From the NCBI GenBank assembly GCA_024693345.1, contig JAILLB010000122.1:1-38522 (forward strand): 38,522 nucleotides of DNA. The letters are read 5' to 3'. Under the pieces are notes generated by a model. The model was not told the DNA's origin. It did not search any database and saw only the letters and a list, made by a program, of their open reading frames with translations. Position 1 is the first letter of the stretch, and each line of letters opens with the position of its first letter. Position numbers and translations under genes: made by a program. Source of the DNA: Clostridiales bacterium. GTDB taxonomy: Bacteria > Bacillota > Clostridia > Oscillospirales > CAG-272. Below are positions 31,028 through 32,815 of this stretch, in pieces.

Positions 31028-31043
31028 GGAAAGAGTGACTGAT

Positions 31044-31451
31044 ATGATAAAGCTAATTGCCGGCCTTAAAGGATCCGGAAAAACAAAAACTCTGATTGAA
31101 ATGGTTAATTCAGCTGCAGAACAATCCGAAGGATCTGTCATCTGCATCGAAAAAGGAGACAAACTCCGTTATGACATTTCATATCGTGCAAGATTAGTCA
31201 ATGTTCAGGAGTATTCAGTTGAAAGCGGTGAAGCACTGTACGGATTTGTAACTGGTGTTTGCGCATCCAACTATGATATAAAGCACGTATTCATTGATTC
31301 AGCTCTCAAAATTTGTCAAAACAATGTATCTTCATTCGAAGAATTCGTTAACAAAGCAGCTGAATTTGCAGCAAAAGATTCCATCGATCTGGTCATTACA
31401 GCATCAATTGATGAAGCTGACCTTCCGGATGGTTTGAAGAAGTATCTTTGA
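31044..31451 (+). CDS. Small P-loop nucleotide-binding protein of unknown function
   Basis: MIKLIAGLKGSGKTKTLIEMV contains Walker A GLKGSGKT; weak Walker B HVFIDSAL. ATG 31044 rather than GTG 31035. Confidence 0.75.
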   Translation: MIKLIAGLKGSGKTKTLIEMVNSAAEQSEGSVICIEKGDKLRYDISYRARLVNVQEYSVESGEALYGFVTGVCASNYDIKHVFIDSALKICQNNVSSFEEFVNKAAEFAAKDSIDLVITASIDEADLPDGLKKYL

Positions 31452-31468
31452 TAGAATAGGAGCATCAT

Positions 31469-32815
31469 GTGAACAAAGAGAGACTCAATGATTTATTGAA
31501 AGAGATGCACACTTGTGATGACACTCGCAAGGAAGAAATAAAGAAAGAAATTTACAATGCTTACGTAAAGCCAGTTTTGTATGTGTGCAAAAATGTACTG
31601 TCAGATGATTATGACTATGAGCAGTATGCCGATGATTCATTTACAATGGCTTTCGGAAACGTTGAAAAGAACAATATCGAACTTGGTGCAGATTTTGTAA
31701 AAATGCTGAACATTGCAACGATATACACCTGTTCTATGAAATTGTCATCATCTCCCGAATATCTCGACTGGACCAAATCAAAAGCTACAAATGTCGCTGG
31801 TGTTACAGAGGCAGATCCGGATGAAATGATAGATTCTGCTGTATACAGCGAAACAGTCAAGATGGCTATCCCGTCAATGCTCAGAGAATTGCCCGCACAG
31901 GAAAAGATTTGTGCTTATGCTTATTACTTCCTATATATGAAACCGAGCATGATTGCATGGGCAGTTAACCATGCAGAAAATGTCATTGAAGATAAATTGA
32001 ATTCAGTAAGAAGCTGCATAATGATGAGCATAAGGTATTATGCCGGTTCAAATGATAAAGAGGATTTATCCTTCACAAGACAAATCATTCATGACTTTTT
32101 GGTTTATGACTCAACAAGAACAATTCTGAGAGGCGATGCTTCAGCTGACCTGCATCCCGAGACATACACTGCAAGAGACCATGCAATGACCCAGAAATCC
32201 AGGCCGAAACCTGCTCAGGAAAAGAAACAGAACCTCGAAGATACCAATCTTCTTGCTGCGGCAGAGATTATTAATCTTGGCGGCGCCGGTGGTGAAGATG
32301 ATGGAGCACCAAAGGACGAAAACAGACCTTCAAACGATGTACCCGATCGCGATCCATCTGTAATAGATTTCGATGAACCCGACGATGAACCTCAAAAGAA
32401 AAAGAAGAGTACACTTGCAACAAACAAGACGCTCCTTATCGTGGTCATAGCCCTGGCTGTGACACTTGTTGTTGCTCTCGTTGTAATTGCATTCACCACA
32501 CCTCTGTTTAAGAATCTGTTCAATTCCAGCCCGACGGTTGTTGAATCCATTGAAACTGTTCAAACCACCATAAACATTAAAGTCGGACAAACTGTTGATT
32601 ATACAAGTTATTTTTCCGTGAAACCTTTAAATGTGACTTATTCGACAGATTTTAAAGATTCAGGCGTTTGGTATGTATCTTCATCAGACTCAGCAATAGC
32701 CATTGTCAATCAAGCTGACGGAACAGTCACAGGGGTTGCAGTTGGCGAAACAACAATCAATGTTCTGGACAAAACAACAGTAAAGTCTGCAACAATAAAC
32801 GTTGTTGTTTCATAA
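31469..32815 (+). CDS. Membrane-anchored protein: sigma-70/ECF-like cytoplasmic region, linker, one TM segment, C-terminal Ig-like (Big2-type) domain
   Basis: N-term YNAYVKPVLYVCKNVLSDDYDYEQYADDSFTMAF (sigma2-like) and LRELPAQEKICAYAYYFLYMKPSMIAWAVNHAENVIEDKLNSVRSCIM (sigma4-like); charged/Pro linker; TM TLLIVVIALAVTLVVALVVIAF; C-term SSDSAIAIVNQADGTVTGVAVGETTINV is Big2-like. GTG start behind AGGAG. Confidence 0.65.
   Translation: MNKERLNDLLKEMHTCDDTRKEEIKKEIYNAYVKPVLYVCKNVLSDDYDYEQYADDSFTMAFGNVEKNNIELGADFVKMLNIATIYTCSMKLSSSPEYLDWTKSKATNVAGVTEADPDEMIDSAVYSETVKMAIPSMLRELPAQEKICAYAYYFLYMKPSMIAWAVNHAENVIEDKLNSVRSCIMMSIRYYAGSNDKEDLSFTRQIIHDFLVYDSTRTILRGDASADLHPETYTARDHAMTQKSRPKPAQEKKQNLEDTNLLAAAEIINLGGAGGEDDGAPKDENRPSNDVPDRDPSVIDFDEPDDEPQKKKKSTLATNKTLLIVVIALAVTLVVALVVIAFTTPLFKNLFNSSPTVVESIETVQTTINIKVGQTVDYTSYFSVKPLNVTYSTDFKDSGVWYVSSSDSAIAIVNQADGTVTGVAVGETTINVLDKTTVKSATINVVVS

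Follow-up and report, generated by a model that had tools for sequence, protein, structure and literature searches.

ECF sigma factors that are fused to a transmembrane (TM) segment are known from Actinobacteria (ECF48, ECF52 and ECF53; SCO4117) and from Pseudomonas putida (IutY, ECF243) (PMC8999054; PMC5826349). IutY has been shown to be freed by proteolysis, a step that was also proposed for ECF52 and inferred for ECF48/52/53 (PMC8999054). In PhyR of Alphaproteobacteria, a sigma-like domain acts by binding an anti-sigma factor (PMC4598750). The SigW-RsiW/RsgI-type systems of Firmicutes consist of two proteins.

We compared these systems with a gene in a 38,522-nucleotide stretch of DNA from a Clostridiales bacterium (the window). 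Like ECF48/52/53 and IutY, its product carries a sigma2-sigma4 module, a TM segment and an extracytoplasmic part in one polypeptide, and no separate anti-sigma gene adjoins it. Since one-piece TM ECFs (ECF48/52/53, IutY) are already known, the kind is not new and the novelty implied by the original prediction of a one-piece transmembrane sigma factor does not hold (PMC8999054); moreover, the order of the host bacterium contains a whole group of such proteins. The window protein differs from the described examples in several respects. The fused ZAS domain that is typical of ECF48/52/53 is absent; the ectodomains found here are others (Big_2, LRR, SH3) and the lineage is a different one; and, unlike ECF48/52/53 and IutY, the clade of the window protein is without the DNA-reading residues. 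With PhyR it shares a domain that resembles an ECF sigma but has another role (shown for PhyR, presumed here) and is fused to a signal-receiving part (PMC4598750). However, PhyR is soluble and has a receiver domain, whereas the window protein has a TM helix and an Ig-like ectodomain. The SigW-RsiW/RsgI-type systems provide the nearest solved structure (SigW), and their anti-sigma factors share the N-in/C-out topology, but the two proteins of those systems are matched here by one, in which no anti-sigma domain was recognised.

Searching the literature on Ruminococcus-like bacteria for sigma factors tethered to the membrane returned nothing pertinent, the main ECF re-classification being outside its scope. 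The literature searched seems to contain no description of the order's TM-ECF group, although the group may have been named before. The unusual part is a clade that is degenerate yet strictly conserved.

Gene layout, topology and conservation

The predicted 448-aa reading frame is present and is preceded by a good ribosome-binding site. A single polypeptide carries the sigma domain, the TM helix and the ectodomain:

31035..31451, + strand: upstream gene for a small protein with a P-loop (GxKGxGKT), 17 nt ahead of the sigma-like gene
31458..31462, + strand: ribosome-binding site AGGAG, read in the sequence, 6 nt before the GTG
31469..32815, + strand: whole gene, 448 codons with a GTG start (sigma-like domain, TM helix, Big_2)
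31469..31747, + strand: sigma2-like region, residues 1-93
31844..32041, + strand: sigma4-like helix-turn-helix, residues 126-191, which superposes on sigmaE region 4 (2h27)
31988..31993, + strand: E174-D175, aligned with sigmaE R171-S172 of the -35 recognition helix
32042..32254, + strand: post-sigma4 segment, putatively cytosolic, residues about 192-262, with a predicted helix at 197-220
32255..32422, + strand: variable acidic linker, residues 263-318, without cysteine and without a ZAS motif
32426..32503, + strand: TM helix, residues about 320-345, preceded by KKKK
32540..32800, + strand: Big_2 domain, putatively extracellular, residues 358-444 (Pfam, AlphaFold)

The TM helix and the Big2-like C-terminal domain of the original prediction were both confirmed. 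The best 19-residue hydropathy window lies at residues 322-340 (score 3.51), the AlphaFold model predicts a helix at residues 319-351, and the Big_2 match at residues 358-444 exceeds the Pfam cut-off (28 versus 22.8 bits), with pLDDT values mostly of 76-95. Because KKKK stands on the N-terminal side of the TM helix, an N-in/C-out orientation is expected, which would place the N-terminal half in the cytosol and Big_2 outside the cell. A search of the window protein for the ZAS anti-sigma motif (HxxxCxxC) found none, and there is no cysteine after residue 195. A DUF4179 match (E 0.013) was rejected, as it covers mostly the TM region and is under the cut-off.

Orthologues of 444-451 aa that are 75-77% identical occur in two congeners (G002, G003). 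A further orthologue (G001; 664 aa, 25% identical overall and 28% in the N-terminal domain) lies at the same locus beside the same P-loop gene and contains three Big_2 domains. The open frame is kept in all four genomes under purifying selection, and the homologue search found the TM plus Ig-like architecture in the orthologues and across the wider group, which bears out a conserved domain order. Among the window protein, G002 and G003, identity is 93-94% in the sigma-like region and 96-99% in the post-sigma4 segment, against 42-55% in the linker and 35-42% in the ectodomain; the upstream P-loop proteins of the two congeners share 81-82% identity with that of the window. In the cytosolic regions of these three, dN is 0.02-0.04 and dS ranges from 1.8 to saturated, with some values undefined. 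The strict conservation of the cytosolic part, set against the diverging linker and ectodomain, suggests that the function held fixed is cytosolic. By the same comparison the ectodomain is evolving fast.

The P-loop gene is present in 52 of 59 relatives, few of which have the sigma gene beside it, and is probably a mere neighbour because it is conserved over the order without the sigma gene. At the corresponding place in the congener G004 (L042), a lipoprotein-like gene sits downstream of the P-loop gene and replaces the sigma gene, which points to gain or loss of the latter inside the genus. Given the 52/59 pattern and this replacement, a functional link between the two genes was rejected as evidence. 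The P-loop proteins themselves (31035-31451; L038-L067) are 135-138 aa long, share the motifs GxKGxGKTKTLI and ASNxDIxHIFIDSA, and are often encoded beside a glucose-6-phosphate isomerase-like gene; searches of the P-loop protein against Pfam and NCBIfam gave no function match above cut-off.

Sigma ancestry and the DNA-reading surface

The N-terminal region (residues 1-190) had been read as an ECF-like sigma2/sigma4 pair. Curated models do not find this in the window sequence itself: Pfam gave no sigma domain, and NCBIfam TIGR02985 scored 17-20 bits, where its cut-off is 126.4. The reading was instead borne out through the G001 orthologue and through profile and structure comparison. For the N-terminus of the G001 orthologue, models of RNA polymerase sigma factors gave a match at 1.8e-9 and Sigma70_r4_2 one at 1.4e-4. 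Against curated sigma models this orthologue falls just short of the cut-off (21.9 versus 25.7 bits). A profile of the four orthologues aligned with a profile of eight transmembrane ECF sigmas at 99% probability over 185 columns, and its only PDB sequence match was SigW (E 0.016). ECF sigmas also dominate the Foldseek matches to the N-terminal half, with SigW first (E 3.8e-4 with the full-length model; TM-score by target 0.63-0.66). The sigma4 part superposes on DNA-bound sigmaE region 4 (2h27) over 64 residues with an rmsd of 1.1 and a TM-score by target of 0.83-0.86, but at an E of 0.36. Profile comparison and Foldseek thus place sigma2 and sigma4 folds in order, on models of low confidence (pLDDT about 50-80 in the N-terminal helices) because the AlphaFold alignment for the window protein had only four rows. 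The sigma ancestry of the N-terminal part is secure; its fine structure is not.

Residues were compared with 91-93 ECF domains from the collected loci, using sigmaE numbering checked against the PDB sequence; these ECFs were picked by similarity to canonical profiles, so the contrast with them is exaggerated. Of the 47 hydrophobic consensus positions, 41 are kept in the window protein (baseline mean 0.94), but none of the five polar (S/T/N/Q) ones (baseline 0.90, lowest 0.40). We take R171, S172 and R176 of sigmaE to be the residues that contact -35 DNA in the 2h27 structure. Glu-Asp (E174-D175) replaces the R171-S172 pair in the window protein, whereas position 171 is K or R in 84 of the 93 comparison ECFs and both positions are acidic in just one of them. 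The recognition helix, which had been described as not basic, carries a net charge of -1, compared with +1 to +9 in all 93. In the region 2.2 motif of the window protein (D49-Y-E-Q-Y-A-D55-D-S-F58), rightly called degenerate, D49 and E51 of the acidic/Gln motif that serves RNA polymerase binding are kept, and the near-invariant D48 and Q51 have Gln and Asp as equivalents; the equivalent of the near-invariant N80 is Tyr.

The loss of -35 contact residues and the negative recognition helix support the suspected loss of promoter binding. The window protein's own DNA-reading surface is probably largely gone and promoter reading with it. DNA contact may persist in at least one orthologue, since that of G001 keeps Q-S-R and a recognition helix of +2; it also keeps all five polar positions, but only one of the seven acidic consensus positions.

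A wider group of TM-fused ECF proteins

A profile of the N-terminal part, searched against 295 genomes of the order, recovered long proteins, most of them with full sigma2 and sigma4 (Pfam, NCBIfam). Their single TM helix lies mostly at residues 250-330, and their ectodomains are Big_2, LRR (BspA type), SH3_3, WG-repeat-like, Cu_amine_oxidN1 or unassigned. The ZAS zinc-finger motif is absent from the 19 relatives checked. The group profile found 19 such genes in 13 of 197 genomes of the order (E 1e-58 or better); 300 genomes across the phylum, few of them from this order, gave one near match, a 660-codon frame from the same class (E 2e-52). The MAG records of the relatives include two assemblies of the RUG series, which we take to be a rumen assembly series, and one from goat reticulum. 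One-piece TM ECFs are thus not limited to Actinobacteria and pseudomonads: an order of rumen-associated Clostridia has a group of its own, in which the ectodomains are of many kinds.

A maximum-likelihood tree built from 96 sigma domains joins the window clade to G001 (support 100/96). A degenerate TM clade (L017, L020, L022; 92/93) is the next neighbour, and the window clade lies among the TM rows. Three changes suffice to explain the TM label on this tree, against 23.8 in shuffles. A single origin of the TM-ECF group is likely but not proven, because support at its base is weak (38/64), the tree has long branches and similarity guided the choice of rows. The stem leading to the window clade is long (1.81 changes per site) and distances within the clade are only 0.01-0.04; read from these branch lengths, the history of the clade is one of change first and freezing after. 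Divergence has probably carried the sigma part past promoter reading in one clade and perhaps in two, yet in the window clade this part is conserved more strictly than the neighbouring gene.

L017, L020 and L022 (428-449 aa) make up a second TM-ECF clade with degenerate sigma domains. N80 is replaced by Tyr, the net charge of the recognition helix is 0 to +1, and one of the three has a weak C-terminal SH3_3 match.

Another set of proteins, L151-L159, was considered for membership of the TM-ECF group and rejected, as they have no TM helix and are placed elsewhere in the tree. They are soluble ECF sigmas with very large C-terminal extensions (e.g. L151:1007-4147 and L154:1049-3679) that fall into two tight size classes of about 867-890 and 1046-1106 aa and show just a weak DUF3108_like match at the C-terminus. 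They are common in the order and family of the window and form one tree clade (98/85). The genome of the window also encodes an ECF sigma of 543 aa (L075:346-1974) whose long C-terminal part is mostly soluble; in the tree it groups with L023 and L026, which come from other genomes (100/99).

Possible modes of action

The original prediction offered two functions, a transcription switch or a scaffold that no longer binds DNA. The evidence leans to the second in the sense that -35 reading is absent; sequence cannot settle the matter. Computation establishes the gene, its layout, sigma ancestry and relatives, the selection pattern and the residue loss; the membrane topology, the loss of promoter reading, the partner and any signal are inferences. 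The best explanation, in which we place about as much belief as doubt, is a membrane-anchored pseudo-sigma that acts by protein contact and is derived from one-piece TM ECF sigmas. The ectodomain and the TM helix (N-in, C-out) would connect a condition outside the cell to the cytosolic sigma2-sigma4 module, which seems to have retained its fold while losing the surface that reads -35 and most of the polar consensus residues in sigma2. The module may then attach to RNA polymerase or, in the manner of PhyR, capture an anti-sigma factor, and such binding would alter the activity of another sigma factor. Protein contact is preferred over promoter reading because the DNA-reading surface is lost, although the loss of contact residues could instead reflect a changed promoter specificity. 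A partner could exist, since the genome carries several ordinary ECF genes directly followed by genes for TM proteins (L072, L073, L074, L076); these look like sigma/anti-sigma pairs. By analogy we tentatively suggest a transmembrane counterpart of PhyR, with the promoter-reading surface abolished and the capture of an anti-sigma factor or of core RNA polymerase controlled by the ectodomain. If the mimic reading is true, sigma-factor mimicry would have been invented a second time, here in a membrane-based form.

The main rival, an ECF sigma that is tethered to the membrane and still works, is somewhat doubtful. In this model a signal would trigger site-1 cleavage and then site-2 (RasP/RseP-type) cleavage within the TM helix, and the freed cytosolic sigma domain would read promoters of its own, with altered sequence. 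The layout is that of ECF52 and IutY (PMC8999054), the N-in/C-out topology is as in RIP substrates of the RsiW/RsgI type, the cytosolic part is strictly conserved, and other members of the group have well-formed sigma2/sigma4. Two M50 proteases are encoded in the genome, but this says little because M50 proteases are universal (present in all 14 control genomes). Against this model are the acidic residues at two central -35 contacts, the negative recognition helix, the lost equivalents of N80, D48 and Q51, and the missing ZAS motif.

It is unlikely that the protein is a sigma-derived membrane scaffold without a link to transcription, such as a cell-surface adaptor. The lost functional residues, the fast-evolving ectodomain and the weak remaining similarity to sigma models would fit this role; however, a pure scaffold need not hold the sigma core so strictly, and its relatives in the TM-ECF group look like active sigmas. 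That the sigma similarity is spurious, as any small helical bundle might produce, or that the gene is decaying is highly improbable: the window protein passes no curated sigma model and its N-terminal models are of low confidence, but the intermediate G001 orthologue, the 99% profile match and the ECF-dominated Foldseek lists speak against the former, and the frame held open in four genomes by purifying selection against the latter.
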